A stretch of 64,000 nucleotides of DNA, taken from the NCBI RefSeq assembly GCF_002813295.1, contig NZ_PHUE01000001.1:558001-622000 (forward strand), in the 5' to 3' direction. A model generated the notes under the pieces. It saw only the letters and a program-made list of their open reading frames with translations, was not told the origin of the DNA and searched no databases. Positions within the stretch are counted from its first letter, which is position 1; each line of letters opens with the position of its first letter. This document shows, piece after piece, positions 47,504 to 64,000 of the stretch. The translations under genes and the position numbers were made by a program. This DNA is from Flavobacterium sp. 5 (GTDB lineage: Bacteria; Bacteroidota; Bacteroidia; Flavobacteriales; Flavobacteriaceae).

Positions 47504-47980
47504 CCAAACTCTGCTCTATTTTTTTTTAGGAGCAGAAGCATTCAGGATTTCAATAACATGAGTCCTGCTCTTCGCTATATCTTTGCTTTTTTAAAGAAAA
47601 AAAGCAAAGGATGCCGCTGCGATCACGGCTAAAGATATAGATTTGGCATTTTAAAATCATCTACAATTAGAATCAAACTTAGAATTCTAATTTATCTTTA
47701 GTAATCTACAAAACAGCTTTTTTCTCATTATTACAAAAGAAAAATTATTTAGCGACTTATATATTTAGTTTTAGAACAAAAAAAGCATAGAAGCTAATTC
47801 CTAGAATTTCAAAATCCTAAAAAAATTTCAAAATCTACATTTTTTTGTAACTCGTTATATTTTTTATTCAAACAACCGATTGTGTAATTATAAATTATAC
47901 CTTTACCGCAAAAAAAAACATTATTTATTACTGCATTAAAAAAAAAGTAGTTAATAAATTGTATATATAAAAATAAAAAC
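47504..47980. other. Long intergenic region before the uronate locus
   Basis: About 480 bp. It holds the dispersed hairpin element at 47558-47631, then AT-rich sequence leading to the exuT promoter. No gene is seen. Confidence 0.6.
47558..47631 (-). repeat. Dispersed intergenic hairpin element, copy B
   Basis: A 12-bp stem CTTTGCTTTTTT/AAAAAAGCAAAG (47581-47592, 47598-47609) is flanked by TCCTGCTCTTCGCTATAT and GATGCCGCTGCGATCACGGC. Both flanks align with copy A at 12110-12197, although the stem sequence differs, showing compensatory change. Confidence 0.7.
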
Positions 47981-47988
47981 TATTTTTG
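47959..47988 (+). promoter_or_regulatory. Promoter of exuT
   Basis: TTG at 47959-47961 and TATTTTTG at 47981-47988, 19 bp apart, match the Bacteroidota -33/-7 consensus. Confidence 0.75.
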
Positions 47989-48002
47989 TGTAATCGATTA
48001 CA
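47989..48002. promoter_or_regulatory. LacI-family operator, exuT site
   Basis: TGTAATCGATTACA is a perfect 14-bp palindrome placed directly after the -7 box, so it covers the transcription start. Confidence 0.8.
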
Positions 48003-48037
48003 TTTAATTAAACTTGCGAAAATTAAACAAAAAACAG

Positions 48038-49477
48038 ATGGATAATCAAAATATAGGAAAATACAGGTGGACAATATGTGGAATGCTTTTTTTTGCAACA
48101 ACAATTAACTATCTTGATAGACAAGTACTATCTCTAACATGGAATGATTTTATTGCTCCCGAATTTCACTGGACAAATAATGACTACGGAAATATTACCG
48201 CCCTATTCTCTATTTTCTATGCAGTATCTTTATTGTTTGCTGGACGATTTGTTGATTGGATGGATACCAAAAAAGGCTTCCTGTGGGCAATTGGAATATG
48301 GTCAATAGGTGCTTGTTTGCATGCTTTTGCAGGAATTGCAACATCAGGAGTAATAACAGGAAATTGGTTTGTTGGTTTCGAAGGAGCTAAGGAAGCAATC
48401 CATAATGTAAGCGATACCGCTTTAGTAATTAACGTAAGTGTTACTTTGTTTATTTTTGCTCGTTTCGTCCTCGCAGTCGGTGAAGCAGGAAACTTTCCGG
48501 CTGCTATCAAAACAACAGCTGAGTACTTCCCTAAAAAAGACAGAGCATTTGCAACAAGTATTTTTAATGCTGGAGCAACAATTGGCGCATTAGCTGCACC
48601 GATTTCTATACCATTTATTGCAAAAGCTTTTGGATGGGAAATGGCCTTTATAATCATTGGAGCCTTAGGTTTTATATGGATGGGTTTCTGGATTTTTATT
48701 TATGACAAACCTGAAAGTCATTCTAAAGTTACAACAGCTGAGTTAGAATATATTCAACAAGACATACTTTCTGACAGCAAAATTGAAGGCTATGTACCTG
48801 AAACTACTACTAAAGTTTCACTTGTAGATTGCTTAAAATACAAACAAACATGGGCTTTTGCATTTGGTAAATTCATGACTGATGGTGTTTGGTGGTTTTT
48901 CTTATTCTGGACACCAGCGTATTTAAGTTCAGTATATGGAATGGATTCTACAGAAGCTGCTTTCCCCCTATTTGTTTTATACATGATTACTTTACTTTCA
49001 ATCATTGGTGGCTGGTTACCAACCTACTTTGTTGAGAAAAAAGGCATGAATCCTTATGAAGGACGAATGAAATCAATGTTAATTTTTGCGTTTTTCCCAT
49101 TAGTAGCACTTCTTGCACAACCTTTAGGACATATTTCATACTGGCTTCCAATTATTGTTATTGGTATTGCGTTAGCTGCACACCAAGCTTGGTCAGCAAA
49201 CATTTTTACTAGTGTTGGAGATATGTTTCCTAAAAAAGCAATTGCAACCATTACTGGTATTGGTGGTTTAGCCGGAGGAGTTGGTTCAACTATCATTAAT
49301 AAAGGATCTGGTGTTTTATTTGATTATAGCAAAAACACAGATATGGTTTTCATGGGGTTCAAAGGAATAGAAGCTGGATATTTTATCATTTTTTCCATTT
49401 GTTCTGTTTGCTATTTAATAGGATGGACTGTTATGAAATCATTAGTTCCTAAATACAGCCCGATTACTGATCTTTAA
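48038..49477 (+). CDS. exuT: MFS hexuronate transporter, ExuT-like
   Basis: The protein of about 479 residues has 12 hydrophobic segments and the anion:cation symporter signature of hexuronate permeases, FFATTINYLDRQVLSLTW (about 18-35). RFVDWMDTKKG forms the loop 2-3 motif, and GEAGNFPAAIKTTAEYFPKK follows. It should import galacturonate and/or glucuronate. ATG at 48038 (MDNQNIGKYRW) fits the family. A TTG at 48014 would add eight residues and is less likely. It has its own operator-bearing promoter and heads the uronate gene series. Confidence 0.88.
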   Translation: MDNQNIGKYRWTICGMLFFATTINYLDRQVLSLTWNDFIAPEFHWTNNDYGNITALFSIFYAVSLLFAGRFVDWMDTKKGFLWAIGIWSIGACLHAFAGIATSGVITGNWFVGFEGAKEAIHNVSDTALVINVSVTLFIFARFVLAVGEAGNFPAAIKTTAEYFPKKDRAFATSIFNAGATIGALAAPISIPFIAKAFGWEMAFIIIGALGFIWMGFWIFIYDKPESHSKVTTAELEYIQQDILSDSKIEGYVPETTTKVSLVDCLKYKQTWAFAFGKFMTDGVWWFFLFWTPAYLSSVYGMDSTEAAFPLFVLYMITLLSIIGGWLPTYFVEKKGMNPYEGRMKSMLIFAFFPLVALLAQPLGHISYWLPIIVIGIALAAHQAWSANIFTSVGDMFPKKAIATITGIGGLAGGVGSTIINKGSGVLFDYSKNTDMVFMGFKGIEAGYFIIFSICSVCYLIGWTVMKSLVPKYSPITDL

Positions 49478-49599
49478 AAAACAAAACAACTCCTAATACT
49501 AACCTAACCAAATTAGTAATTATGAATCAAATCAATGCTATTTACAATAAAAAAAACTTAATGTATCCGCTAATCTAATTAAAAATAGCCTAAAATATA

Positions 49600-49628
49600 T
49601 TGTTTATTAAAAATTTAAATTACTTTTG
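49600..49628 (+). promoter_or_regulatory. Promoter of the kduI operon
   Basis: TTG at 49600-49602 and TACTTTTG at 49621-49628 are 18 bp apart, fitting the Bacteroidota promoter pattern. Confidence 0.65.
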
Positions 49629-49642
49629 TGTAATCGATTACA
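49629..49642. promoter_or_regulatory. LacI-family operator, kduI site
   Basis: TGTAATCGATTACA is identical to the exuT operator and again directly follows the -7 box. It lies 14 bp before the kduI ATG. Confidence 0.8.
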
Positions 49643-49656
49643 TTAAAAACTAAACC

Positions 49657-50493
49657 ATGACAAAATATAGCTCTAGATATGCTTCAAGTCCAGAAGCCGT
49701 AAAACAATATGATACCAAACAATTGAGAGATGAATTCTTGATTGATGATTTAATGAAGGAAGACGAGATTACATTGACGTATTCACACTATGATCGTTAT
49801 ATTACTGGTTCGGCAGTTCCTGTCAAAGATTTAACCTTGGAAACTATTGATCCTCTAAAAGCTGGTTATTTTCTAGAGCGCAGAGAAATGGGAATCATAA
49901 ATGTTGGCGGAAACGGTTCGGTTGTTGTTGAAGGAGTAACACATGAATTAGGTCTTAAAGATGCCCTTTATATTGGAAGCGGGAATAAAGAAGTCATTTT
50001 TAAAAGTGCTGATTCAAAAAATCCTGCTAAATTTTACATTAATTCAGCTCCTGCCCACACCACTTATCCAACTAAAAAAGTAAGTTTAGCAGAAGCTAAT
50101 AAATTAGAATTAGGCACAATGGAAACTGCAAATCACCGTACGGTAAATCAAATGATCATTGGAGGTGTTGTTACTACTTGTCAATTACAAATGGGTATGA
50201 CGGAATTAAGGCCTGGAAGTGTTTGGAACACAATGCCAGCTCACGTACATGATCGCAGAATGGAGGTTTATTTTTATTTGGATATTCCAGAAAACCAAGC
50301 TGTATGTCACTTTATGGGACAGCCACAGGAAACTAGACATATTTGGATGAATAATCATCAAGCGGTTATTTCTCCGCCATGGTCAATTCACTCTGGATCA
50401 GGCACTAGTAACTATACTTTTATATGGGGAATGGCAGGTGAAAACTTAGACTATGGAGATATGGATGTTTGTAAAATCACAGATTTAAGATAA
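49657..50493 (+). CDS. kduI: 5-dehydro-4-deoxy-D-glucuronate (DKI) isomerase
   Basis: The 278-residue cupin-fold isomerase has the zinc-site pattern PAHVHDRRMEVYFYLD (about 195-210), a downstream Glu/His in QETRHIWMNNHQAVISPPWSIHSG, and the family N-terminus RYASSPEAVKQYDTKQLRDEFL. It converts 5-keto-4-deoxyuronate, released from unsaturated pectin (or other uronide) fragments, to 2,5-diketo-3-deoxygluconate. It is the first gene of a tight operon with the dehydrogenase gene (4-bp gap). Confidence 0.95.
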   Translation: MTKYSSRYASSPEAVKQYDTKQLRDEFLIDDLMKEDEITLTYSHYDRYITGSAVPVKDLTLETIDPLKAGYFLERREMGIINVGGNGSVVVEGVTHELGLKDALYIGSGNKEVIFKSADSKNPAKFYINSAPAHTTYPTKKVSLAEANKLELGTMETANHRTVNQMIIGGVVTTCQLQMGMTELRPGSVWNTMPAHVHDRRMEVYFYLDIPENQAVCHFMGQPQETRHIWMNNHQAVISPPWSIHSGSGTSNYTFIWGMAGENLDYGDMDVCKITDLR

Positions 50494-50497
50494 GACA

Positions 50498-51289
50498 ATG
50501 ATAAATTCATTATTTGATGTAAATGGAAAAATTGCCCTAATTACAGGAAGTACACACGGACTGGGAATGGCAATGGCAAAAGGATTAGGTAACGCTGGGG
50601 CTACAATTGTTGTAAACGGTAACTCCTCACAACAAAAAATTGATGATGCCGTTAAGGAACTTCAAAATGAAGGTATCAATGCGGTTGGTTATAAATTTAA
50701 TGTAACAAATGAGCAAGAGGTTAAAGATGCTATTCAAAACATTGAAAGTAAAGTTGGACCAATTGATATCCTAATTAATAATGCAGGAATCATTAAAAGA
50801 ATTCCATTAATCGAAATGGAAGTTGCCGATTTTAAAGAAGTGATTGATATTGATTTGGTGAGTCCTTTCATCGTTTCCAAACATGTTGCAAAAGGAATGA
50901 TTGAAAGAAGACAAGGTAAAATAATCAATATTTGTTCCATGATGAGTGAATTGGGCCGCAATACTGTAGGGGCCTATGCTGCTGCAAAAGGCGGTTTAAA
51001 AATGTTAACCAAAAACATGGCTACCGAATGGGCAAAATACAATATACAGATCAATGGAATTGGACCAGGCTATTTTGCTACTGAACAAACTAAACCTATC
51101 AGAGTTGATGGACATCCTTTTAATGATTTTATAATCAGTCGTACGCCAGCTGCAAAATGGGGAGATCCTAGTGATTTAGCAGGTGCAACCATATTTTTAT
51201 CCTCAAAAGCAAGTGATTTTGTAAACGGTCACATCCTTTATGTAGATGGCGGAATCCTTGCAACAATTGGAAAACCTTCAAACGAATAA
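50498..51289 (+). CDS. kduD: SDR dehydrogenase, KduD / gluconate 5-dehydrogenase type
   Basis: The 263-residue short-chain dehydrogenase has the NAD-binding GSTHGLGMAMAKGLG (about 17-31), NNAG (about 90) and a catalytic Ser-Tyr-Lys set with YAAAKGG (about 160). The sequence resembles gluconate 5-dehydrogenases. The position right after kduI supports reduction of 2,5-diketo-3-deoxygluconate to KDG, the KduD step. The two functions share one subfamily, so the symbol rests on context. Confidence 0.82.
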   Translation: MINSLFDVNGKIALITGSTHGLGMAMAKGLGNAGATIVVNGNSSQQKIDDAVKELQNEGINAVGYKFNVTNEQEVKDAIQNIESKVGPIDILINNAGIIKRIPLIEMEVADFKEVIDIDLVSPFIVSKHVAKGMIERRQGKIINICSMMSELGRNTVGAYAAAKGGLKMLTKNMATEWAKYNIQINGIGPGYFATEQTKPIRVDGHPFNDFIISRTPAAKWGDPSDLAGATIFLSSKASDFVNGHILYVDGGILATIGKPSNE

Positions 51290-51310
51290 TAATATTTTAA
51301 TGAAATTATA

Positions 51311-52711
51311 ATGAGTACAAATTTCATACATGACAATTTTTTATTAGAAAACAAATATGCTGAAGAATTATATCATAATTATTCTAAAAATCAGCCTATT
51401 ATAGACTATCACAATCACTTAAATCCTCAGTTTATTGCCGAAGATAAAATTTTCGACAGTATTACCAATGCATGGATAAATGGAGACCACTACAAGTGGC
51501 GGGCTATGCGTACTTTAGGAATCAACGAACAATTTATCACAGGAAATGGTTCGGATAAAGATAAATTTATCAATTGGGCAAAAACAGTTCCATATACAAT
51601 GCGTAATCCTTTGTATCATTGGACACATTTAGAATTGGCTCGTTATTTTGGTATTACTGAATTATTAAACGAAAAATCGGCAGAATCAATTTACGAACAA
51701 GTTTCTGCAAAAATCAATTCTCAGGAATACAGTACACGAAACTTACTTAAAAAAGTAAATGCTGAATTTGTATGTACTACTGAAGATCCGATTGACAACT
51801 TACAATATCACCAAAAATTAGCAAAAAGTGACTTTACTACAAAAGTAAGTACCGCTTTTAGACCTGATAAAGCTATTCTTATTTCGAATGATGGATACAA
51901 TGCTTATATAGACACTTTAGCAGAAGTGGCGGGAGTTTCTATTAATTCGTATGCAGATTTATGTTCAGCATTAACAAACAGAATCGAATATTTTGACAAA
52001 AATGGCTGCAAATTATGTGATCATGGTTTGGATCAAATTTATTTTGAAAACTTTACTGAAAATCAGATAAATGTTATATTTAAAAGAAAAAGAGAAAATC
52101 AAGTCTTAACTAATGAAGAAACTTTAAAATTTCAAAGTGCCATCTTATTATTTTTATCCGAAACGTATCATAAATACGGATGGGTGCAACAATTTCACTT
52201 AGGAGCATTGAGAAATAATAATGCTCGTATGCATAGTATTTTAGGTCCAGATACCGGATGGGATTCTATTGGAGATTATCCACAAGCTCAAAAACTATCT
52301 GGTTTCTTGAATGCCTTGGATAGCAAAAATAAATTGACAAAAACAATCATTTATAATTTGAATCCTGCCGATAATGAAGTAATGGCTACCATGATTGGTA
52401 ACTTTAACGACGGAAGTGTAAAAGGTAAAGTCCAATTTGGTTCTGGATGGTGGTTTTTAGACCAAAAAGACGGAATGACAAAACAATTGAATGCACTTTC
52501 AAACATGGGACTTATTAGCTGTTTTATTGGAATGTTGACAGATTCCAGAAGCTTTTTATCATTTCCAAGACATGAATATTTTAGACGTATTCTTTGTAAC
52601 CTTTTAGGAGATGAAATCAAAAGAGGTGAACTTCCTAATGACATAGAATGGATAGGTAAAATGGTTTCAGACATTAGTTATAATAATGCCAAACAATATT
52701 TTAAATATTAA
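51311..52711 (+). CDS. uxaC: Uronate isomerase
   Basis: The 466-residue amidohydrolase-fold isomerase has the family start FLLENKYAEELYHNYSK and a metal-ligand HxH in IDYHNHLNPQ (about 32-41). EFVCTTEDPIDNLQYH follows mid-chain, and SFLSFPRHEYFRRILCNLLG is near the C-terminus. It converts galacturonate to tagaturonate and glucuronate to fructuronate. It follows the dehydrogenase gene by 21 bp and is followed by kdgK after 4 bp. Confidence 0.95.
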   Translation: MSTNFIHDNFLLENKYAEELYHNYSKNQPIIDYHNHLNPQFIAEDKIFDSITNAWINGDHYKWRAMRTLGINEQFITGNGSDKDKFINWAKTVPYTMRNPLYHWTHLELARYFGITELLNEKSAESIYEQVSAKINSQEYSTRNLLKKVNAEFVCTTEDPIDNLQYHQKLAKSDFTTKVSTAFRPDKAILISNDGYNAYIDTLAEVAGVSINSYADLCSALTNRIEYFDKNGCKLCDHGLDQIYFENFTENQINVIFKRKRENQVLTNEETLKFQSAILLFLSETYHKYGWVQQFHLGALRNNNARMHSILGPDTGWDSIGDYPQAQKLSGFLNALDSKNKLTKTIIYNLNPADNEVMATMIGNFNDGSVKGKVQFGSGWWFLDQKDGMTKQLNALSNMGLISCFIGMLTDSRSFLSFPRHEYFRRILCNLLGDEIKRGELPNDIEWIGKMVSDISYNNAKQYFKY

Positions 52712-52715
52712 TACA

Positions 52716-53738
52716 ATGAATAAAGTAGTTTCATTCGGAGAAATAATGTTACGCCTTTCACCAGAAGGAAATTTACGTTTTGGTCAAGCCCAAGCGTTTG
52801 GAGCTACTTATGGTGGAGGTGAATTTAATGTTGCTGTTTCTTTAGAAAATTATGGTATAACCGCAGAATTTGTAACGCGATTACCAGAAAATGAGATTGG
52901 AACATGCGCGTTAAGAGAAATACGAAAAATGAACGTAGAATCCAAAAATATCATTTATGGAGGAGAACGTTTAGGGATTTATTTTCTTGAAAGAGGTGCT
53001 GGAACAAGAGGAAGTAACGTAGTTTACGACCGTTCACATAGCTCTATGGCGACTATCGAGAAAGGAAGTATCGATTGGGAAAATGTACTAAAAGATGCTA
53101 ACTGGTTTCACTGGAGTGGAATCACAGCTGCAATATCTGAGAGCGCAGCCGAAGCTTGTTTAGAAGCTATTAAAGTTGCTCATAAATTAGGATTAACCAT
53201 TTCATGTGATTTGAATTACAGATCCAAATTGTGGCAATATGGAAAAACTCCAAGTGAAGTTATGCCAGAAATGTTACAATACTGTAATGTAATTTTAGGA
53301 GATATTGATACGGCGCATTTCATGTTAGGAAAACCTAAAGTAAATCCAAACTATCAAGATGAGAAATCACTTCCGGTTTTGTATACAGCATTATTTGATT
53401 TAATTCCGAATTTAAAAACAGTAGCTACAACATTACGCTATTCGGTAAGTGCTTCGCACCAAAGAATTGGCGGAATATTATTTGATGGGGGAAAAATTCA
53501 TCAAGCCGCTGTAAAAGAAGTTACCCCAGTAATTGATCGAGTTGGAAGTGGAGATGCCTTTATGGGAGGATTAATTTACGGTTTATTAGAATATCCTAAT
53601 AATAACCAAAGAGCCTTAAACTTTGCTGTTGCTGCTTGTTGTTTAAAACATACCGTTGCCGGAGATTACAATTTGGCGACCTTAAAAGAAGTACAAAACA
53701 TGGCAGATGGCGATTCTGCTGGATTAGTTTCTAGATAA
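52716..53738 (+). CDS. kdgK: 2-dehydro-3-deoxygluconokinase (PfkB family)
   Basis: The protein of about 340 residues has PfkB signatures: VSFGEIMLRLSPEG at the start, YGGGEFNVAVSLENYG, and the ATP/Mg catalytic motif DRVGSGDAFMGGLIYG near residue 280. It phosphorylates KDG to KDPG. ATG at 52716 is preferred to 52686, because the upstream codons overlap uxaC and the family starts at MNKVVSFGE. It joins both uronate branches to the aldolase encoded next. Confidence 0.9.
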   Translation: MNKVVSFGEIMLRLSPEGNLRFGQAQAFGATYGGGEFNVAVSLENYGITAEFVTRLPENEIGTCALREIRKMNVESKNIIYGGERLGIYFLERGAGTRGSNVVYDRSHSSMATIEKGSIDWENVLKDANWFHWSGITAAISESAAEACLEAIKVAHKLGLTISCDLNYRSKLWQYGKTPSEVMPEMLQYCNVILGDIDTAHFMLGKPKVNPNYQDEKSLPVLYTALFDLIPNLKTVATTLRYSVSASHQRIGGILFDGGKIHQAAVKEVTPVIDRVGSGDAFMGGLIYGLLEYPNNNQRALNFAVAACCLKHTVAGDYNLATLKEVQNMADGDSAGLVSR

Positions 53739-53753
53739 AAACATAAAATAATT

Positions 53754-54425
53754 ATGGCAAAATATACAAGAATTGAAGTTGCGGCAGTAATGAAAGAAAC
53801 AGGTTTAGTTCCTTTATTCTATCATACTGATGTATCGTTAGCAAAAAAAGTACTAAAAGCATGTTATGATGGTGGCGCCCGATTAATGGAATTTACAAGC
53901 AGAGGAGATTTTGCTTTTGAAATTTTTGGAGAGCTTAATAAATATGCGATAAAAGAATTACCAGGAATGATTCTGGGAGTAGGATCTATAACAGATGCAG
54001 CAGCTGCTTCACTTTATATGCAAATGGGAGCCAATTTTATTGTTACTCCAGTTTTCAGAGAAGATATTGCTATTGTTTGTAACCGCAGAAAAGTATTATG
54101 GTCACCTGGTTGTGCATCACTCACAGAAATTGCTAAAGCTGAAGAATTGGGTTGTGAAATTGTAAAATTATTTCCGGGTGAAATCTATGGACCTCAATTC
54201 ATAAAAGGAATAAAAGGACCATGCCCTTGGACAAGTATTATGCCTACAGGGGGTGTCACTACTGAAAAAGAAAATCTAAAAAGCTGGTTTGACGCTGGTG
54301 CAACATGTGTAGGCATTGGTTCTCAACTAATAACCAACGAAATATTGTTAAGCCGAGATTTGGATGTATTAGAAATTCAAGTCAGAAAAACTTTAGCTAC
54401 CATTAAAGAGGTTAGGCAAAAATAA
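53754..54425 (+). CDS. eda: KDPG aldolase (Eda)
   Basis: The 223-residue class I aldolase has a Schiff-base Lys in CEIVKLFPGE (about 142), the catalytic Glu region GGARLMEFTSRGDFAFE, and ISPVF-type INFIVTPVF before NRRKVLWSPGC. GPCPWTSIMPTGGVTTE is the phosphate site. It splits KDPG into pyruvate and glyceraldehyde-3-phosphate, ending the pathway. It is the last gene before a 176-bp gap with a structured element, after which uxaB and uxaA follow. Confidence 0.93.
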   Translation: MAKYTRIEVAAVMKETGLVPLFYHTDVSLAKKVLKACYDGGARLMEFTSRGDFAFEIFGELNKYAIKELPGMILGVGSITDAAAASLYMQMGANFIVTPVFREDIAIVCNRRKVLWSPGCASLTEIAKAEELGCEIVKLFPGEIYGPQFIKGIKGPCPWTSIMPTGGVTTEKENLKSWFDAGATCVGIGSQLITNEILLSRDLDVLEIQVRKTLATIKEVRQK

Positions 54426-54433
54426 AACTAAAA

Positions 54434-54533
54434 AATAAGCGGCTTAAAAATAGTTAGATAAGAAGAATTTGGTCCCCAATCCTCATTAAAGGATCAAAAG
54501 CAACCATTCTAACAATAAATTCAGTCGCTTATT
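54434..54533 (+). other. Nested hairpin element between eda and uxaB
   Basis: Three successive stems pair across 100 nt. The outer one is AATAAGCGGCT (54434-54444) with AGTCGCTTATT (54523-54533). The middle is GTTAGA with TCTAAC (54453-54458, 54508-54513). The inner is TTTGGTCC with GGATCAAA (54468-54475, 54491-54498), with a 15-nt loop. No T run follows. It ends 68 bp before the uxaB ATG. Confidence 0.6.
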
Positions 54534-54601
54534 ATTTAAAGAATAAAGTGTAGTTCGAAAAAGAAAAAAGAACCAAACAAATAATATAGTAAAAGGAAAA
54601 A

Positions 54602-56050
54602 ATGAAAAATTTAAATAGAAAAAATTTAGGATTAGAGAAATTACAACCTATTAAAGTAATTCAATTTGGAGAAGGGAATTTCCTTAGAGCTTTTGTTGAT
54701 TACGCTTTTCACACACTAAATAAAGAAGTAGATTTCAATGCTGGTATCGCAATCGTTCAACCATTGAAAGATGGTATGGTAAATATGATTAACGATCAAG
54801 ATGGTCTTTACACTTTGTTTATGAACGGAATCAAAAAAGGTGAAAAAATTCAAGACATTGAGCTAATTACTAATATTGTAAAAGCAATAAATCCATATAG
54901 TGATTTTGCAGATTATTTAGCTTTAGCCAAAGAAGAGGCACTTCAATTTATTGTTTCAAATACTACTGAGGCTGGAATTGAATTTCTTGACAGCGACACA
55001 CCAGATATGCAACCACCTGCTGCATTTCCAGCAAAGTTGACTGTTTTATTACATGAAAGATTCAAACATTTTAAAGGAGATGCTTCAAAAGGATTGACTA
55101 TCATTCCTTGTGAATTGATTGATTACAACTCGGAGACTTTAAAAAAATGTATCTTACAATATTGTGATTTATGGAAGTTAGAAGATGCATTTAAAACATG
55201 GGTATCAGAAGCTTGTACGTATCACAGTACTTTGGTTGACAGAATTGTTCCAGGATATCCTAGAGCTGAAATTGAAGACTACAATAACAAATTAGATTAT
55301 CAAGACAATTTAATTGTTGCTGCAGAACCATTCTTCCTTTGGGCTATTGAAGGCGGTGAGGCGCTAAAAGCAAAACTACCTTTCCACAAAACAAATTTGA
55401 ATGTTAAGATTGTTGACGATATACGTCCTTTCAAAATGATAAAAGTTAGAATTTTGAACGGAGCTCATACAGCAATGGTTCCTATTTCATTATTATACGG
55501 TAACAAATTAGTAATGGAAACAGTTAACGGCGATTTTACTGGGAAATTTGTAAACAGTGTAATTAGCGAAATTAGCGGTACTCTTGATATGGATAAGAAT
55601 GAAATTCAAGCGTATTCTGAAGAAGTAATGGACAGATTTAAAAATCCATTTATCAAACATGCACTTGCTGATATTGCTTTAAATTCTATCTCAAAATTCA
55701 AAGTTAGAGTTTTACCAAGTTTATTAGGACACTATAATGCAACTCAAAAACTACCTACTGCATTAACTTTTTCATTAGCTTGTTTAATCCAATTTTACAA
55801 AGGAACTTGGAACAATGAAGCATTACCAGTAAAAGATACTCCAGAATTAGTTGAAGCATTCAAAAATGCTTGGGAATTAGGATCTTTAGATTCAGTTGTA
55901 GCATCAGTTTTAGCTAATACCGAATTCTGGGGTGAAGATTTGACTAAAATCAAAGGTTTATCTGAAGCTTTAGTAACAGCTTTAAATGAGATTGAAACTA
56001 ATGGAATTGAAAATGGCTTTGCAAATTTCAGTAAAACAGTTCTAGTTTAG
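54602..56050 (+). CDS. uxaB: Tagaturonate reductase (altronate oxidoreductase)
   Basis: The 482-residue protein belongs to the mannitol dehydrogenase family. The N-terminal NAD-binding segment is VIQFGEGNFLRAFVDYAF (about 19-36), and the C-terminal domain has the catalytic KVRILNGAHTAMVPISLLYG (Lys, Asn and His about 280-299). It reduces tagaturonate to altronate. It is followed by uxaA after 19 bp. Unlike exuT and kduI, no palindromic operator lies in its leader, so it may be reached by read-through from the kduI operon. Confidence 0.93.
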   Translation: MKNLNRKNLGLEKLQPIKVIQFGEGNFLRAFVDYAFHTLNKEVDFNAGIAIVQPLKDGMVNMINDQDGLYTLFMNGIKKGEKIQDIELITNIVKAINPYSDFADYLALAKEEALQFIVSNTTEAGIEFLDSDTPDMQPPAAFPAKLTVLLHERFKHFKGDASKGLTIIPCELIDYNSETLKKCILQYCDLWKLEDAFKTWVSEACTYHSTLVDRIVPGYPRAEIEDYNNKLDYQDNLIVAAEPFFLWAIEGGEALKAKLPFHKTNLNVKIVDDIRPFKMIKVRILNGAHTAMVPISLLYGNKLVMETVNGDFTGKFVNSVISEISGTLDMDKNEIQAYSEEVMDRFKNPFIKHALADIALNSISKFKVRVLPSLLGHYNATQKLPTALTFSLACLIQFYKGTWNNEALPVKDTPELVEAFKNAWELGSLDSVVASVLANTEFWGEDLTKIKGLSEALVTALNEIETNGIENGFANFSKTVLV

Positions 56051-56069
56051 AACTTCAAAAATTATTATC

Positions 56070-57683
56070 ATGCAAAAGAAATTAATAAAAGTAAACCCAG
56101 CAGATAACGTAATTGTCGCTTTAACCGATTTGGTACAAAACGAACAAATTACATTTGAGGGAACTACCGTTATACCAACAACTGATGTTAAAGCAAAACA
56201 TAAAATTGCAGAGAAAGATTTTGCAATTGGTGATGATATCATAATGTATGGAGTTTTAGTTGGAAAAGCTGCACTACCCGTAAAAAAAGGAGAAGTAGTT
56301 ACCACCGAAAATGTAAAACATCAAAGTGAAAAAGTTTTCGGTAAAACCGGAAATTTAGGTTGGACTCCTCCAAATGTAGATCGCTGGAAAGACAAAACTT
56401 TCAACGGATATCACCGTACAGATGGACAAGTGGGTACCAAAAACGTTTGGTTGTTTTTTCCATTGGTTTTTTGTGAAAACAAAAATATCGAGAAACTGAA
56501 AGATATTTTCGAAAATGAATTACTACCTAAAAAAGAGGTTTCTTATAAAAATTTATTACGCTCTTTAATTGAAGAAAAAAGTGTTGAAGAAGTTGCAGAT
56601 AAATCTCCAAATGAGAATCTTTTAGATAATATTGAAATAAAATTCATCAATCATCAAGGTGGTTGCGGTGGGATTCGACAAGATTCAGAGCTGTTAGCAA
56701 AACTGCTTGCAGGATACGTAAACAACCCGAACGTTGCAGGTGCAACAGTTTTAAGTTTGGGTTGCCAGAATTTGCAAATTGATATTTTTCAAAAGGCCTT
56801 GAAAACAATGAGCCCGAATAGTGATAAAGAAATTTTGATCTATGAGCAACAACAAATTGGAACTACCGACCAAATGTTTCAAATGGTGATTAAAGATTCT
56901 TATGAAGCTATTAAAAGAGCCAACCAAATTAAACGTAAACCTGCACCACTTTCAAAACTAAGCATTGGTTTAGAATGTGGCGGATCTGATGGTTTTTCTG
57001 GAATCTCGGCAAATCCTTCATTGGGAATTGTTTCAGATATTTTTGCAGCTTTGGGTGGGAAAACCATTTTGGCAGAGTTTCCAGAATTATGTGGGGTTGA
57101 ACAAGAATTGATGAACCGATGTGTGGACGAAGAAAAAGCAGATAAGTTTTTGACTTTAATGAAAGCTTTTGAAAAATCTGTTGTGGATGCAGGTTCAGGT
57201 TTTGATATGAACCCATCTCCAGGGAATATTAAAGACGGATTAATTACTGATGCAATGAAATCTGCAGGTGCAGCCAAAAAAGGTGGAACTTCGCCTGTTG
57301 TAGATGTTTTAGATTATGGAGAATATATTTCAAAACCAGGTTTAAATCTTTTGAATACACCTGGGAATGATGCTGAATGTACTACAGGTTTAGTCGGCTC
57401 AGGAGCAACCGTGGTTTTATTTACAACAGGTTTAGGAAATCCAATGGGGAATCCGATTGCACCTGTGGTAAAAATTTCTTCAAACACAGCATTAATTAAT
57501 AGAATGTCAGATATAATTGATGTAAATGCTGGAACTGTGATTACTGGTGAAAAAACCATTACTGAAGTAGGAGCAGAAATCGTAGATTATATTATAGAAT
57601 TGGCGAGCGGAAACATAGAAACAAAAGCAGATCAGCTAAAACAAGATGTATTTATTCCTTGGAAAAGAGGAGTATCATTATAA
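56070..57683 (+). CDS. uxaA: Altronate dehydratase
   Basis: The 537-residue protein has an N-terminal SAF domain (about 1-95, PADNVIVALTDL) and the large UxaA domain with NHQGGCGGIRQDSELLAKLL (about 190-210), GLECGGSDGFSGISANPSLG (about 300-320) and TPGNDAECTTGLVGSGATV near the C-terminus. It dehydrates altronate to KDG, which KdgK then takes. It closes the galacturonate branch. A hairpin follows the stop. Confidence 0.94.
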   Translation: MQKKLIKVNPADNVIVALTDLVQNEQITFEGTTVIPTTDVKAKHKIAEKDFAIGDDIIMYGVLVGKAALPVKKGEVVTTENVKHQSEKVFGKTGNLGWTPPNVDRWKDKTFNGYHRTDGQVGTKNVWLFFPLVFCENKNIEKLKDIFENELLPKKEVSYKNLLRSLIEEKSVEEVADKSPNENLLDNIEIKFINHQGGCGGIRQDSELLAKLLAGYVNNPNVAGATVLSLGCQNLQIDIFQKALKTMSPNSDKEILIYEQQQIGTTDQMFQMVIKDSYEAIKRANQIKRKPAPLSKLSIGLECGGSDGFSGISANPSLGIVSDIFAALGGKTILAEFPELCGVEQELMNRCVDEEKADKFLTLMKAFEKSVVDAGSGFDMNPSPGNIKDGLITDAMKSAGAAKKGGTSPVVDVLDYGEYISKPGLNLLNTPGNDAECTTGLVGSGATVVLFTTGLGNPMGNPIAPVVKISSNTALINRMSDIIDVNAGTVITGEKTITEVGAEIVDYIIELASGNIETKADQLKQDVFIPWKRGVSL

Positions 57684-57721
57684 TATTGAAAATAGTTTTT
57701 TAGATTATTATTTGTTTAAAT

Positions 57722-57756
57722 AAAAAGCGGTTAGAGTTGATTTCTAACTGCTTTTT
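57722..57756 (+). terminator. Terminator after uxaA
   Basis: AAAAAGCGGTTAGA pairs with TCTAACTGCTTTTT (one wobble) around a 7-nt loop, with a T run. Confidence 0.8.
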
Positions 57757-57790
57757 TACTTAGTTAAATCATTCCTTACTGCAATTAATT

Positions 57791-57804
57791 TTTAATCGAT
57801 AAAA
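57791..57804. promoter_or_regulatory. Weak LacI-type operator candidate in DUF4861 leader
   Basis: TTTAATCGATAAAA matches the operator TGTAATCGATTACA at 11 of 14 positions, including the whole AATCGAT core. It ends 9 bp before the ATG. No clear -7 box precedes it. Confidence 0.3.
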
Positions 57805-57813
57805 AATATAATT

Positions 57814-58665
57814 ATGAAAATATCATTTCTTCCTTTTTTACTGTTTTGTGGTATTTGTTTTGGTCAAAACAAAACGGATACAAGTCTGTACATGAAATCG
57901 GATAAGATTACTTATCTTACTGATATCGGTTCAGAATCAGGAGATTTATACCAAACAATAGGTCATCACGGACCTGCTATTGAAAACGAATGGATGGCAC
58001 TACGAATCTATTTTAGTGAAAAAGAAGCCATTGATGTCTATTCAAAACCAAATTTAGGATTAGAACTAAGAAAGGCAAATTGGTACCCTACTCCTGCTCA
58101 ACAAAAAGAAGGATGGGGAGCTGATTATTATAAAGTTGCCAACACAGTTGGGCTTGGTGGAGTAAAGCTTTGGGATGGAGAAAAAGTAGTTCCATTAAAT
58201 CCTGTTACCAATCGTTTGGCTCGTGTTGGAAAAACAGATACGACTTCCTACATGGAGATGATTTCTAAAGGTGTTCCATACAAAGGACAAAAAGTTGATA
58301 TTTTAGTTCGAGTTACTGTATTTTCAGGAAAAAGAGAGGCTAAAGTAGAAGCTATTTGTTTAAGTAAAATCAAAGTACAGTTTGTTACTGGTGTCAATTA
58401 CTTTAAAGATTTTAAATCAGATAAAGGAGCTAATTATATTGCAGTATGGGGACTTCATCCTGAAGATGTTGCGGCTTCACAAGTTGAAATTGGGGCAGCT
58501 ATAAAATACAACCCAAAAGATTATACAAAAAATTTAGACGATGGAACTCAATATTTATTGGTCTCTAAACCAACTGAACATTTAGAAACTACAATAATTT
58601 CGTCATGTGCTTTGGAAAAAGAAATAAATACTTTTGAAAAATTAGTTTCATTTTTAAAAAAATAA
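57814..58665 (+). CDS. Secreted DUF4861 protein
   Basis: The 283-residue protein has a signal peptide (about 1-17, ending CFGQ). The GHHGPAIENEWMALRIYF and GWGADYYKVANTVGLGGV segments are typical of DUF4861, a family common in Bacteroidota polysaccharide-use loci. Its enzymatic role is not established to my knowledge. The position between uronate catabolism and a GH28 gene suggests a periplasmic step on pectin-derived oligosaccharides. It has a possible weak operator in its leader and shares a bidirectional terminator with the LacI gene. Confidence 0.75.
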   Translation: MKISFLPFLLFCGICFGQNKTDTSLYMKSDKITYLTDIGSESGDLYQTIGHHGPAIENEWMALRIYFSEKEAIDVYSKPNLGLELRKANWYPTPAQQKEGWGADYYKVANTVGLGGVKLWDGEKVVPLNPVTNRLARVGKTDTTSYMEMISKGVPYKGQKVDILVRVTVFSGKREAKVEAICLSKIKVQFVTGVNYFKDFKSDKGANYIAVWGLHPEDVAASQVEIGAAIKYNPKDYTKNLDDGTQYLLVSKPTEHLETTIISSCALEKEINTFEKLVSFLKK

Positions 58666-58683
58666 ATCTAAGATATATGGCAT

Positions 58684-58713
58684 AAAAAAACTCGCTTAGT
58701 AGCGAGTTTTTTT
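58684..58713. terminator. Bidirectional terminator
   Basis: AAAAAAACTCGCT pairs with AGCGAGTTTTTTT around a 4-nt loop, between the convergent DUF4861 and LacI genes. Confidence 0.9.
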
Positions 58714-58739
58714 ATATAAGTCAAAATAATATCGGAATA

Positions 58740-59774
58740 CTATTTGGAAGATAAACTTCTTGTAGATGATTTTCGGATATGTAATTCAGGGTTTAAAACT
58801 ACTTTCTTTTCAATTTTTATTTTATCAGTATTATTGATTTGTTCCAGAAAAACTTTAGCCGCCATTTTCCCCATCTCCAAAGGTGATTGATCTACAGACG
58901 AAATTGACAACTCCATAAAACGAGTAAAAGGTTCATTACCAAAACCAAAAACACAAAACTCTTCAGGTATCTTCACTCCTCTTTCTTTCAATTCCTGAAT
59001 GGCTCCTAATGCAGCAAAATCACTCGAAGAAAAGATTCCATCTGGTGGTGGATTCAAACTTAATAATCTTTCTACAGCAAGTCTTCCTGCATCGACACTA
59101 CTTTTAGTTTGAAAAACATAGTCTTCATTAGATACTAAGCCAAAATCTTCTAATGCTTTATGATATCCTTTGTTTCTATTTTCATATATCTCAAGTGATT
59201 GATTTCCGGTTAAATGAGCAATACGCTTACACCCTTGCTCGATAAGGTTTTTTGTTGCTAAATACCCTCCTTGAAAATCATTAATAGTAACAGAACTAAC
59301 ACCATCCATTTCTTTCTTTCTATCAAAAAAGATTAATGGCACGTTTTTATCAACTACATTCTTTATCACATGATCATTTTCCTTGGAAACATTTGAAATC
59401 GACATCAGAATTCCATCAACCTGAGCATTCAATAAAGCAGTAATATTTTCAGCTTGTCTGGCTTCGTCCTCATTAGTCTGACAAATTATTACATGATATC
59501 CTTCTGGACGCAATTCTTCTTCGATTCCCCGAATTACAGAAGCAAAAAAGTTGCTATCAATACGTGGTACAATAACACCAACGTTATTACTTTTCCCACT
59601 ACGAAGCGATTGTGCTAATTTATTTTGCTTATAATTCATTTTAGCAGCAGTTTCCAAAACTAACTTCCGAGTGACTTCACTGATTTTGGGATTGTTATTT
59701 AAAGCCCTAGAAACAGTAGCTGCTGTAATATCCAGTGCTTTGGCAATATCGTAAATTGTAGTTTTTTGATCCAT
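58740..59774 (-). CDS. LacI-family transcriptional regulator of the uronate/pectin locus
   Basis: The protein of about 344 residues has an N-terminal LacI HTH, TIYDIAKALDITAATVSRALNN (about 5-26), and the hinge region MNYKQNKLAQSLRSGKSN. A periplasmic-binding-protein-like ligand domain has NFFASVIRGIEEEL and PDGIFSSSDFAALGA. ATG at 59774 (MDQKTTIYD) is preferred; a TTG at 59825 would add 17 residues before the HTH. It is divergent from the GH28 gene. Four copies of one palindrome in the region make it the obvious operator-binding protein, with a uronate-derived inducer inferred. Confidence 0.9.
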   Translation of the reverse strand: MDQKTTIYDIAKALDITAATVSRALNNNPKISEVTRKLVLETAAKMNYKQNKLAQSLRSGKSNNVGVIVPRIDSNFFASVIRGIEEELRPEGYHVIICQTNEDEARQAENITALLNAQVDGILMSISNVSKENDHVIKNVVDKNVPLIFFDRKKEMDGVSSVTINDFQGGYLATKNLIEQGCKRIAHLTGNQSLEIYENRNKGYHKALEDFGLVSNEDYVFQTKSSVDAGRLAVERLLSLNPPPDGIFSSSDFAALGAIQELKERGVKIPEEFCVFGFGNEPFTRFMELSISSVDQSPLEMGKMAAKVFLEQINNTDKIKIEKKVVLNPELHIRKSSTRSLSSK

Positions 59775-59839
59775 TCTGGAATTTAAGGTATAATTTATAT
59801 CGGTAAAAATAAATAAAAAATTCAATTAAAACTGACTAA

Positions 59840-59853
59840 TGTTATCGATTGCA
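59840..59853. promoter_or_regulatory. LacI-family operator, regulator-proximal site
   Basis: TGTTATCGATTGCA differs from the palindrome TGTAATCGATTACA at two positions. It lies 66 bp upstream of the LacI ATG, and its centre is 185 bp from the GH28 operator, consistent with autoregulation or looping. Confidence 0.6.
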
Positions 59854-59994
59854 TAAAAATTAATTTATTCAATAATTTTTGATTTAAAAGCAAGGACTAA
59901 AACTTAATAAATTCATAAAATTAAACATTACTTAAACAATTTCGCAAAAATAATCGGTTTTTATTTTATTTATAATTTTTTAATCGACTTTTTT

Positions 59995-60024
59995 TTGTTT
60001 ATATAAAAATTATATGTAGGTTTG
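59995..60024 (+). promoter_or_regulatory. Promoter of the GH28-SusC operon
   Basis: TTG at 59995-59997 and TAGGTTTG at 60017-60024, 19 bp apart, match the Bacteroidota consensus. Confidence 0.7.
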
Positions 60025-60038
60025 TGCAATCGATTACA
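60025..60038. promoter_or_regulatory. LacI-family operator, GH28 site
   Basis: TGCAATCGATTACA has one change from the palindrome and again directly follows the -7 box. Confidence 0.75.
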
Positions 60039-60070: not shown

Positions 60071-61519
60071 ATGAAATCATCCAAATTATATACAATTTCA
60101 AAAATCATTACAAGCAAAACTATTGTTCTTTTTGCTTGTACTATATTATTTGGTTTTTCACTTTTTGCACAGGAAAATAATCAATCAGAGGAACAATGGA
60201 AAAAAATGGAAATCATTGTAAAATCAATCAAGTATCCAACTTTTCAAAATAAAGTCTATAATATTTTAAAATATGGCGCCCAATCAAATTCTACATTCGA
60301 TAACACTGTAGCTATAACAAGAGCAATACAAGAATGCAGTAAAAATGGTGGTGGAATAGTACTTGTTCCAAAAGGAAAATATGTATCACGCGCAATCCAT
60401 TTAGAAGACAATGTTAATCTTCATTTAGATAAAGATGCAGAAATTATATTCAGTATAAATCCAAAAGATTATTATCCATTAGTTCACACCTCATTTGAAG
60501 GGACAGAATTTATGAACTATTCCCCTTTAATTTATGCTTTCAAAAAGAATAATGTTGCTATAACTGGAAAAGGAACTTTAAATGGTCAAGCAAGTAATGA
60601 AAATTGGTGGGCATGGTCCAGTAGTGAACAATATGGTTGGAAAAAAGGCACTCCATCTCAGACAGATCCTCTCAATCGATTGCGTCTAGTCGATATGGCT
60701 GAAAATAACATTCCAGTTTCTGAAAGAGTATTTGGTGAAGGGCATTATTTAAGACCAAATTTTGTAGAATTTTTTGAATGTAAAAATATACTCATTCAAG
60801 ACATTACCATCATTAATGCACCTTTTTGGGTCATCCACCCTATAAAATCAGAGAACTTTATTGTAGATGGAGTTACAATCAATAGTCATGGACCAAATAA
60901 CGATGGTTGCGACCCTGAATATTCAAAAAATGTAATTATAAAAAATTGCACTTTCAACACAGGAGATGATTGTATTGCAATAAAATCTGGACGTGATGCT
61001 GATGGAAGAAGAGTCGCTATGAAAAGTGAAAACATCATTATTCAAAACTGTACCATGTTTGACGGGCATGGCGGAGTTACTATAGGAAGTGAAATATCAG
61101 GAAGCGTGAGTAATGTTTTTGTTGAAAATTGCAAAATGAACAGCCCAAACCTTGACATTGCCATCCGATTAAAAACTAATTCTAAAAGAGGTGGCCTAAT
61201 AGAGAACTTTTATGTACGAAATATAGAAGTTGGTCAAGTTAAAGAAGCCTTATTAAAAGTAGATATGTTTTATAATGTACATGGTAATCAAGAAGGAACA
61301 TTTATTCCAAGAATAGAAAACATCTATCTGGAAAACATAAAAGTAAAAAATGGAGGAAAGTATAGCATATTAGCAAAGGGCTATAATGAATCTCCTATCA
61401 AAAATATCACTTTAAAAGATGTAACGATAGAAAATGTAAAACAAGTATACTCTATCGAAAACGTAACCAATCTCAAATTTATAAACACTTATATCAATGG
61501 AACATTAATGAAGAATTAA
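60071..61519 (+). CDS. Secreted GH28 polygalacturonase-like glycosidase
   Basis: The 482-residue protein has a long signal peptide (about 1-34, ending SLFAQ) and a right-handed parallel beta-helix. All four GH28 motifs are visible: NNDGCDPE (about 279), NTGDDCIAIKSG (about 299), DGHGGVTIGSE (about 339) and IRLKTN (about 371). These carry the catalytic Asps, the His and the substrate-binding RxK. It should hydrolyse galacturonan or rhamnogalacturonan linkages, and exo-action is plausible in this periplasmic type. A SusC gene follows after 50 bp in the same orientation. Confidence 0.92.
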   Translation: MKSSKLYTISKIITSKTIVLFACTILFGFSLFAQENNQSEEQWKKMEIIVKSIKYPTFQNKVYNILKYGAQSNSTFDNTVAITRAIQECSKNGGGIVLVPKGKYVSRAIHLEDNVNLHLDKDAEIIFSINPKDYYPLVHTSFEGTEFMNYSPLIYAFKKNNVAITGKGTLNGQASNENWWAWSSSEQYGWKKGTPSQTDPLNRLRLVDMAENNIPVSERVFGEGHYLRPNFVEFFECKNILIQDITIINAPFWVIHPIKSENFIVDGVTINSHGPNNDGCDPEYSKNVIIKNCTFNTGDDCIAIKSGRDADGRRVAMKSENIIIQNCTMFDGHGGVTIGSEISGSVSNVFVENCKMNSPNLDIAIRLKTNSKRGGLIENFYVRNIEVGQVKEALLKVDMFYNVHGNQEGTFIPRIENIYLENIKVKNGGKYSILAKGYNESPIKNITLKDVTIENVKQVYSIENVTNLKFINTYINGTLMKN

Positions 61520-61569: not shown

Positions 61570-64000
61570 ATGAAAATAAAGCAACATTTTAAAAAAGGTT
61601 TAACCTCTTTTTATGCCTTAACCATTTTACTTGGTCTGCTCATGACCAATGAAATGGCCGCTCAAAAAAACACAACGATAAGTGGTGTAATAAAAGACGA
61701 TACTGGACTAACTATGCCAGGAGTAAATATTATTGAAAAAGGAACTAACAACTCTACAACTACAGATTTTGATGGTAAATTTGCTTTAAAATTAACCACC
61801 GATAATGCTGCATTGGTAATAAGTTTTATCAGTTTTCAAACACAAACCATAACTGTAGCTGGAAGAAGTTCTTTAGACATTAAATTAAAATCTGAAGAAC
61901 AAACATTAAAAGAAGTTGTTGTTGTTGGGTATGGAACTGTAAAAAAATCTGATGTAACAGGAGCGATTAGCACAATAAAACCAGAAACAATTACAGAAAG
62001 AAATGTAATTAACCCATTAGAAGCCATTCAAGGTAGTACACCTGGTGTACAAATTACTTCTAGTTCAGGTCGTTCTGGTGACGGATACAACGTGGTAATT
62101 AGAGGAAATAACTCTTTATTATCTAATTCTACTCCATTATATGTTGTAGATGGAGTACCAACAGATAATATTGACTTTTTAAATCCTCAAGATATTGCCA
62201 GGATGGATGTATTGAAAGATGCTTCATCAGCAGCAATTTATGGTTCAAGAGGAGCTAGTGGTGTTATTATTATTGCTACAAAAAGTGGTACAACTGCTAA
62301 AGCTGGTATAAGTGTATCTTTAGAAACATCATATGGTACTAAAAACGCTGTAAGATTGCCTGAAATGATGACCGGTGCTGAATGGTGGCAGTATCATCAA
62401 ACAGCCTATTTGAGCGCAACACCTTTAACTCAGACTCCAGCCCAACTTGCAACTGCAGCTGGAACAAATAGCCCTTTATTAGTATCTAGAGCTAATAGCG
62501 GTTATAGTTTTGATTGGTATGATGCCATACTTCAACCAGGTATGACAGCAAACAATTATATTAATGTATCAGGTAGAGCAGATAATGGATTGAGTTACAA
62601 TATGGCTTTTGGAATTCAAAATGACAAAGGACTTATTGACAAGGATTCAAATGATAAATACTCTTTCAAATTGGGCGTAAACCATCGTATAAATAATAAA
62701 TTTTCAACTGGTGCAAATCTTACTATAGCGCGTCTAGAAACTGAACTTGGAAGTGACTTCGCAATGCAAGAGGGTACTAGATTTAGTCCTCTTATGTCAC
62801 CGTATGCTGTTGATGCTGATGGAAATGAAATTCCAGGACAATTATTCTTTCAACCAGGAAAATTGACTTACCCAGATGGAACATGGGCAATTAATAAAAC
62901 TAGTACCGTAAATCCATTAATGGAAATTGCAAACTCGTCACAAACTGAAAAAAGCTGGCAAACAATAGGGAATGTTTATTTTCAATACCAGGCTTTGGAA
63001 TGGTTATCCTTCAAAACAACGTTTGCTGCTGGTATTTTCAATGGAGTAAACAGTTCTGCTTATGGAGCTAAAACAACTGCAGGAGTAAAGTTATCACCAG
63101 CAGGTATAAATTCAGCCTCAATCAAAAATATACAAAATTTCAATTATACTTGGGATAATCAGATTGATTTAAAACATACTTTCAACCAAGATCATACTGT
63201 TAGTGCACTTTTACTGCAAAGTATGTATTCTAATGTGGATGAAAATTCATTTATGTATTCTAATAATCAACCTTTTGAAGTTGGCTCGAATAATATGGGA
63301 TCTGGAGTTCAAACCAGTTACCAAATTACATCTGGTTATGCAAAAAACACTTTGAACTCTTATGCTGTCCGTGTTAATTATGGCTATAAGGACAAATATC
63401 TGATTACAGCATCAAATCGTTGGGATGGTTCATCTGTTTTATCCGAAGGCAATAAATGGGCAAGTTTTCCTTCTGTTGCAGTAGGTTGGAATATTAATAA
63501 GGAATCCTTTTTAGAAAACAACAATACTATTTCTAATTTAAAATTACGTGTTAGTTTTGGTTACACAGGAAATGACAATGTCGCTCCTTACACTTCACAA
63601 GCTTTATTAAATCAACAAACATTCTATGCTAATGGCGGAAATACTGTAGCTGGTTGGCAATCTAAAAATTTAGCTAATACAGATTTAACTTGGGAAAAAA
63701 CGAGAGAGTTGAACTTAGGACTTGATTTTGGTTTCTTAGGAAATAAAATTACTGGTAGTGTAGATGTTTATGACCGTTTGTCTGATAAATTAATTTACGA
63801 ACAAAAATTACCATACGAAACGGGCTGGGATAAAACCTTCTCCAATGTAGGATCTGTGAGTAACAAAGGTATTGAGGTTGGATTAACAACTAAAAATATA
63901 AAATCAAATTTAGTTGATTGGGAAACTAGTTTTACTTTTACTAAAAACGTAAACAAATTAGAATCAATTTACAACCAAGACCAAGTAAGTGATATTGGAA
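61570..64000 (+). CDS. SusC/RagA-type TonB-dependent outer-membrane transporter, 3' truncated
   Basis: The frame opens at ATG 61570 and stays open to the window end (about 810 codons). A signal peptide (about 1-35, ending MAAQ) is followed by a carboxypeptidase-like CarboxypepD_reg domain (GVIKDDTGLTMPGVNIIEKG). The SusC box VVVVGYGTVKKSDVTGAI leads into the plug domain with LYVVDGVPTD, IARMDVLKDASSAAIYGSRG and VIIIATKSG. Barrel strands follow. The rest and a SusD partner lie beyond the window. It probably imports pectin oligosaccharides, as it is in one operon with the GH28 gene. Confidence 0.95.
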   Translation, partial: MKIKQHFKKGLTSFYALTILLGLLMTNEMAAQKNTTISGVIKDDTGLTMPGVNIIEKGTNNSTTTDFDGKFALKLTTDNAALVISFISFQTQTITVAGRSSLDIKLKSEEQTLKEVVVVGYGTVKKSDVTGAISTIKPETITERNVINPLEAIQGSTPGVQITSSSGRSGDGYNVVIRGNNSLLSNSTPLYVVDGVPTDNIDFLNPQDIARMDVLKDASSAAIYGSRGASGVIIIATKSGTTAKAGISVSLETSYGTKNAVRLPEMMTGAEWWQYHQTAYLSATPLTQTPAQLATAAGTNSPLLVSRANSGYSFDWYDAILQPGMTANNYINVSGRADNGLSYNMAFGIQNDKGLIDKDSNDKYSFKLGVNHRINNKFSTGANLTIARLETELGSDFAMQEGTRFSPLMSPYAVDADGNEIPGQLFFQPGKLTYPDGTWAINKTSTVNPLMEIANSSQTEKSWQTIGNVYFQYQALEWLSFKTTFAAGIFNGVNSSAYGAKTTAGVKLSPAGINSASIKNIQNFNYTWDNQIDLKHTFNQDHTVSALLLQSMYSNVDENSFMYSNNQPFEVGSNNMGSGVQTSYQITSGYAKNTLNSYAVRVNYGYKDKYLITASNRWDGSSVLSEGNKWASFPSVAVGWNINKESFLENNNTISNLKLRVSFGYTGNDNVAPYTSQALLNQQTFYANGGNTVAGWQSKNLANTDLTWEKTRELNLGLDFGFLGNKITGSVDVYDRLSDKLIYEQKLPYETGWDKTFSNVGSVSNKGIEVGLTTKNIKSNLVDWETSFTFTKNVNKLESIYNQDQVSDIG

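Follow-up and report, generated by a model that had tools for sequence, protein, structure and literature searches.

A CG-centred palindrome fused to the -7 box at pectin and uronate promoters of Flavobacterium sp. 5 points to the regulon of a neighbouring LacI-family protein

Polysaccharide loci of Bacteroidota are usually pictured under the control of SusR, of hybrid two-component regulators or of sigma/anti-sigma pairs, with LacI-family proteins serving mostly in monosaccharide catabolism. ExuR and KdgR of Bacillus subtilis are LacI-family regulators of galacturonate and 2-keto-3-deoxygluconate (KDG) genes, in another phylum and with another promoter type than the system described here, and CcpA, of the same family, is a global catabolite regulator that acts with HPr. 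We analysed a stretch of 64,000 nucleotides from Flavobacterium sp. 5 (contig NZ_PHUE01000001.1, positions 558,001 to 622,000, forward strand; referred to as the window, whose own numbering is used below), in which a 14-bp palindrome directly follows the -7 box of three promoters of uronate and pectin genes and a gene for a LacI-family regulator lies close by. The closest described systems include KdgR (BT0487), UxaR (BT0824) and UxuR (BT1434), predicted LacI-family uronate regulators of Bacteroides (Ravcheev et al. 2013, PMC3878776; grouped in PMC4052901), which resemble the present system in protein family, in their link to uronate catabolism and in phylum.

The text on the Bacteroides regulons counts that of KdgR among those holding a limited number of periplasmic or extracellular proteins, and it describes AraR and ManR as coupling SusC/SusD operons to cytoplasmic pathways (PMC3878776); therefore, the coupling of SusC/SusD genes to a cytoplasmic pathway is not new. 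The same source places the Bacteroides rhamnogalacturonan and pectin loci under hybrid two-component systems (HTCS), whereas here, when the two are compared by description, SusC/SusD loci, pectate lyase genes and catabolic genes share a single type of LacI site upstream. A search for relatives of the window's LacI protein at an E value of 1e-40 gave none in the 16 sampled genomes of a distant family (f17), a result that says nothing on orthology with the Bacteroides proteins. UxuR2 of Algoriphagus marincola HL-49, also of the LacI family, is predicted to control galacturonate and glucuronate genes along with a tripartite ATP-independent periplasmic (TRAP) transporter (PMC5507952), and a Maribacter locus in our collection (L054) resembles it in that the LacI gene neighbours uxaC and DctP/DctM TRAP genes. 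The two may belong to the same orthologous group; the passages of that paper describing UxuR2 name no pectin loci or promoter-fused operator. CcpA is related through the LacI family, the solved structures closest by sequence to the present protein being 1zvv, 1rzr and 3oqm, but what we describe is a local pectin regulon in Bacteroidota rather than a global one. A literature search for the letters of the palindrome itself, TGTAATCGATTACA, gave a single paper, on a Staphylococcus aureus CcpA target (PMC9598941), and an even palindrome with a central CG is reported in the consulted text on the family for 1173 of 1303 LacI-family transcription factors (PMC4052901). According to the corresponding section of a study on Gramella flava, another flavobacterium, transcripts of kdgK, uxaA, uxaB, uxaC, eda and pelL rise on pectin relative to glucose, and susC and susD of the pectin polysaccharide utilization locus (PUL) show no significant rise on pectin (PMC5306329). 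Topic searches over mainly open-access main texts listed no paper that names a LacI regulon for pectin in flavobacteria. The proposed regulon is an unusually clean case of the already predicted LacI-family uronate regulons.

An earlier note on this DNA had claimed that the promoters of exuT, kduI and a glycoside hydrolase family 28 (GH28) gene share one order of elements: TTG, 18-19 bp, the box TANNTTTG and, at once, a palindrome. This order is present in the DNA at all three, on the plus strand. At exuT (47959..48002), TTG at 47959-47961 is followed after 19 bp by the box TATTTTTG at 47981-47988 and the operator TGTAATCGATTACA at 47989-48002. The kduI promoter (49600..49642) has TTG at 49600-49602, a spacer of 18 bp, the box TACTTTTG at 49621-49628 and again TGTAATCGATTACA at 49629-49642, and the GH28 promoter (59995..60038) has TTG at 59995-59997, 19 bp, the box TAGGTTTG at 60017-60024 and an operator, termed O1, of sequence TGCAATCGATTACA at 60025-60038. 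The palindrome is of even length (14 bp) with a central CG; the exuT and kduI copies are exact, and the single change claimed for the GH28 copy is the one mismatch in TGCAATCGATTACA. Each box fits TAnnTTTG, the -7 box of the Bacteroidota primary sigma factor, which in Bacteroides is centred at -7 in the consulted part of the source (PMC7366714), and TTG lies near -33 in each case. The distance from the operator end to the ATG is 35 bp for exuT, 14 bp for kduI and 32 bp for GH28.

We then compared these sites with the rest of the 4.97-Mb genome. The exact palindrome occurs there twice, before exuT and kduI only, and four more sites differ from it by one mismatch, one of them being the GH28 operator; the reversed-pattern control gave a single site. 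A loose composite of TANNTTTG and TGNNANCGNTNNCA gave three matches, which are the three window promoters, and its reversed control gave one. A further composite, TATATTTG directly joined to TGTAATCGATTACG, was found on the minus strand at genome positions 2806712-2806725 (4713-4726 of the extracted region L091), 2.2 Mb from the window; its operator has one mismatch, and it faces a second GH28 gene (563 aa; Pfam). We regard this fourth composite as independent confirmation because it lies outside the stretch available to the author of the earlier note. At up to three mismatches the palindrome count in the window is unremarkable, with nine sites found, a mean of 5.63 expected, and nine reached in 11 of 100 shuffles. 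Enrichment in the window is not significant at this level. The three-mismatch palindromes at 57791, just ahead of the DUF4861 gene, and 51220 were discarded as sites.

The position of the box relative to the operator was next examined across relatives, using the window and 55 loci from public genome records with LacI orthologues of at least 59% identity; 22 of the 77 loci collected, at 40% or less, were left out. These loci, many of which are related to one another and do not represent independent events, contain 106 operator-like sites with at most one mismatch. A strict TANNTTTG box is placed at offset 0 in 61 of them and at -2 in 11 (72 of 106 together), with one each at offsets 7, 10, 13 and 20 and none at any remaining offset from -8 to 20, including -1 and +1. 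The chance expectation is approximately 0.14 strict boxes per offset (213 strand readings). When one mismatch in the box was tolerated, the counts were 83 at 0, 48 at -2 and 0-12 elsewhere; the count at -2 is inflated because the operator itself starts with TG, and in this register box and operator overlap by TG. The promoter-operator register is thus 0 or -2 and is kept across genera. The fixed zero spacing proposed in the earlier note holds for the three window promoters; as a strict rule it does not, as relatives use either of the two registers.

The earlier note had also proposed scanning this and related genomes for the composite, and such a scan found it enriched near uronate and pectin genes and following the LacI orthologue. 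It is present in 59 of 199 genomes of the genus, 24 of 299 in a sample of the family and 15 of 296 in a sample of the phylum, and the reversed control scored zero among the matches listed in each set. The LacI orthologue, defined by a cut at 58% identity (the next group reaches 45% at most), is encoded in 60 of the 199 genus genomes, the orthologues of G044 and G014 being fragments. All 59 composite-bearing genus genomes encode it, so that the composite occurs in 59 of the 60 genomes with this LacI and in none of the 139 without. The agreement persists among the 71 genus genomes in which UxaC exceeds its cut-off: 58 of 59 with LacI carry the composite and 0 of 12 without (Fisher p ~1e-12, phylogeny ignored). 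In G061, the single genome with LacI and no composite, CGTAATCGATTACG stands ahead of kduI and also in the stretch separating lacI from GH28 (genes compared by blastp). In the family sample, where the two lists were matched by eye, LacI is encoded in 42 genomes, and these include every one of the 24 with the composite. Three composite genomes lie outside the family, and each has a LacI relative (64, 48 and 46% identity) on the same contig, approximately 1.6-6.6 kb from the site; kduI adjoins the site in all three, and the box faces kduI in two.

Two side observations concern the LacI protein and its sites in individual genomes. The G061 operators (positions 1797 and 13337 of locus L227) are both CGTAATCGATTACG, a symmetric change in both arms, and the recognition-helix letters of the G061 LacI are nevertheless those of the window protein. 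Two tandem LacI copies, 72 and 68-69% identical to the LacI of the window, stand at the pectin locus of Flavobacterium pectinovorum, F. hydrophilum and F. hibisci (L023, L024 and L028).

To describe what the composite promoters precede, we collected 137 sites and removed four duplicates, leaving 133; the fetched regions represent 60 of the composite places listed for the genus genomes, and first genes were labelled by blastp against proteins of the window or of the genome itself, or against ten representatives typed with Pfam. In 124 of the 133 the promoter is followed by a uronate, pectinase or SusC gene: 103 have a pectate lyase, GH28, GH105 or uronate gene in first place, and 21 have SusC there. 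By type, first genes are GH28 of the window type (25), Pectate_lyase_4 (22, 12 of them nearest to representatives with a CBM77 module), kduI (21), SusC (21), GH28 of the distal type (17), uxaC (10) and exuT (4), with one each of uxaB, GH105, UxuA and Pec_lyase. Of five SusC loci that were read further, four hold pectinesterase, rhamnogalacturonan lyase or Pel9A-like genes, and in the fifth (L233) no pectin enzyme was found among the four further proteins scanned. Over the 133 sites, TTG was counted 55 times at spacers of 18-20 and eight times at the seven other spacers between 14 and 23; many sites have no TTG at the -33 place. Up to seven composite promoters per genome were seen among the matches listed. 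In two Maribacter loci (L060 and L066), operators in the -2 register were seen, one ahead of a mannonate dehydratase gene (UxuA) and the other ahead of a DUF7133/cytochrome c protein gene; this second case may be due to chance or may add a member to the regulon.

Taken together, these results support with a probability of about 0.86 the reading that the window holds one regulon, in which a CG-centred palindrome is fused to the -7 boxes of exuT, kduI and GH28, and in which the LacI protein of 58740-59774 likely binds the palindrome, which would cover the transcription start until an intermediate of uronate degradation, predicted to be KDG, releases the protein. LacI binding, repression, the start and the inducer are here predictions from sequence. 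An operator placed right after a box centred at -7 would span about -3 to +11, and a LacI dimer on that stretch would mask the start and block RNA polymerase or open-complex formation. LacI would in this way keep the genes off until a pectin breakdown product arrives, and one regulator would link the outer steps (GH28, SusC/SusD and pectate lyases) with uptake (exuT) and catabolism (kduI to uxaA). Our best guess for the inducer is KDG, because the kduI branch, the galacturonate branch (uxaCBA) and the glucuronate branch represented by the Maribacter UxuA meet there. The observation made in the earlier note is confirmed and its interpretation largely supported; in particular, its assignment of the sites to this LacI protein agrees with the co-occurrence of site and orthologue and with the pectin and uronate genes behind the sites.

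Several points weigh against this reading. Of the three one-mismatch sites far from the window, two lack an adjoining box, and the 176-bp gap ahead of uxaB-uxaA in the window holds no site. In the family sample, 18 of the 42 LacI genomes have no exact composite, and in G579, a composite genome from beyond the family, the fused box points away from kduI toward a GH105-like gene approximately 0.7 kb off. The joint profile of LacI and composite also reflects shared ancestry, and the same co-occurrence with the sites would be expected of every gene in this locus. Of the 133 promoters, 61 were fetched through the register-0 composite, so that the list shows gene content and not register. Nine promoters are unassigned or unrelated: three lie at contig edges, and the others precede lacI, the DUF7133/cytochrome c gene, a LamG gene (with GH28 further along the same strand), a beta-helix gene, an SDR (short-chain dehydrogenase/reductase) gene and one unidentified gene.

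The genome also encodes five further LacI-family proteins, one of them with a similar helix-turn-helix, and the palindrome could in principle belong to one of these or to some other regulator, the neighbouring lacI being incidental. We consider this very improbable, given that the composite follows this LacI so closely across the genus and that an operator-like site stands before this lacI. Moreover, the 20-kb loci of the five paralogues contain no CG-centred palindrome at offset 0, only two chance-like ones at 10 and 11; on this small test, the idea that LacI-type sites in general sit at zero offset was dropped, and such spacing may still occur at other loci. The site before lacI, O2, reads TGCAATCGATAACA in the lacI direction (59840..59853, minus strand). 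The earlier note had listed it as a fourth copy with two mismatches; it is real and conserved, but its geometry differs, with no -7 box directly before it, so that the identical order seen at the target promoters does not extend to the lacI side. Instead, O2 starts 42 bp ahead of a -7-like box, TATTTTTA (59804..59811, minus strand), 37 bp before the lacI ATG, where several relatives have a strict TANNTTTG. Of 56 loci, the window included, 30 have an O2 with at most three mismatches, placed 63-101 bp ahead of the lacI ATG, and in 17 of these 30 a -7-like box with at most one mismatch starts 42-44 bp after the O2 start. O2 is therefore upstream of the expected -33 element and off the start site. 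It would put lacI under the control of its own product, and the sign could be either, by repression, activation or looping.

The spacing in those 17 loci would suit a LacI protein that is an activator or has a dual role, repressing at the fused sites and activating its own promoter from O2, approximately 40-50 bp upstream of the expected lacI start. Some LacI-family proteins do activate from such an upstream position. We nevertheless find this unlikely, since at the fused target promoters the -7 box comes first and the operator follows downstream, a position that does not readily fit activation, and since many orthologues, those of the Maribacter group among them, have a weak O2 or none. It is just as doubtful that O1 and O2 are joined by a DNA loop, as in the lac and gal operons of Escherichia coli, in such a way that one complex shuts both GH28 and lacI. 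The O1-O2 distances do group at 163-165, 173-176, 183-186, 195-196 and 279-280 bp, all close to multiples of 10.5. An initial test on a tree of 72 loci yielded p = 0.047, and the signal was stronger when LacI proteins were clustered at 80-95% identity, a procedure that takes less account of the tree. However, the signal weakened to a median p of 0.19 (range 0.03-0.53) once the set was enlarged to 80 loci and ancestral states were resampled, off-phase lengths of 148, 180, 198, 201 and 284 also occur, and no known tetramerisation helix is apparent by eye at the LacI C-terminus. A more far-reaching version of the regulon, in which the TANNTTTG-TGTAATCGATTACA fusion, at 0 or -2 only, is an ancient and mobile Bacteroidota module that places pectin use as a whole under one cytoplasmic LacI, secreted lyases and SusC/SusD as well as KDG metabolism, with a helix-phased O2 loop in addition, is rather unlikely.

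The genes of the window were named by profile search and context, and all are on the plus strand except lacI. The exuT-like gene (48038..49477) encodes a major facilitator superfamily transporter (Pfam MFS_1) whose nearest NCBIfam model, a D-galactonate transporter, scores under its cut-off, so that its name comes from context. It is followed by kduI (49657..50493; 5-dehydro-4-deoxy-D-glucuronate isomerase, NCBIfam equivalog over cut-off) and by an SDR gene taken as kduD by context (50498..51289), which among the best 25 families listed is over cut-off only for gluconate 5-dehydrogenase. Next come uxaC, for uronate isomerase (51311..52711; over cut-off), a kdgK-like PfkB kinase gene named from context and under every NCBIfam cut-off (52686..53738), kdgA, for the KHG/KDPG aldolase (53754..54425; over cut-off), uxaB, for tagaturonate reductase (54602..56050; over cut-off), and, by profile search, uxaA of the altronate/galactarate dehydratase family (56070..57683) and a DUF4861 gene (57814..58665). 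Between uxaA/DUF4861 and GH28, lacI lies on the opposite strand (58740..59774, ATG at 59774); its product of 344 aa has an N-terminal LacI helix-turn-helix (PF00356, 44.1 bits, cut-off 27) and a periplasmic-binding-protein-like core (PF00532 and PF13377). The GH28 gene (60071..61519) is the first gene of the pectin PUL, with Pfam Glyco_hydro_28 over cut-off and the nearest NCBIfam model, alpha-D-galacturonidase, under it, and the SusC-like TonB receptor gene (61570..64000) extends beyond the window. In the genome, SusC is followed, according to Pfam, by genes for SusD, an esterase, DUF4861, Glyco_hydro_88 (GH88/GH105 type), Glyco_hydro_43, Pectinesterase, Glyco_hydro_28 and a GDSL esterase.

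The present analysis adds the operator sequence, its fusion to the promoter in two registers, the breadth of the predicted regulon and its tight link to one orthologous group of LacI proteins. A single type of LacI site is found ahead of genes for uptake across the outer membrane, for secreted pectinases and for the cytoplasmic pathway. The 22-bp composite rule is exact enough to annotate pectin genes and PULs of Flavobacteriaceae by pattern search, and the composite offers a testable design for an inducible promoter in these bacteria.

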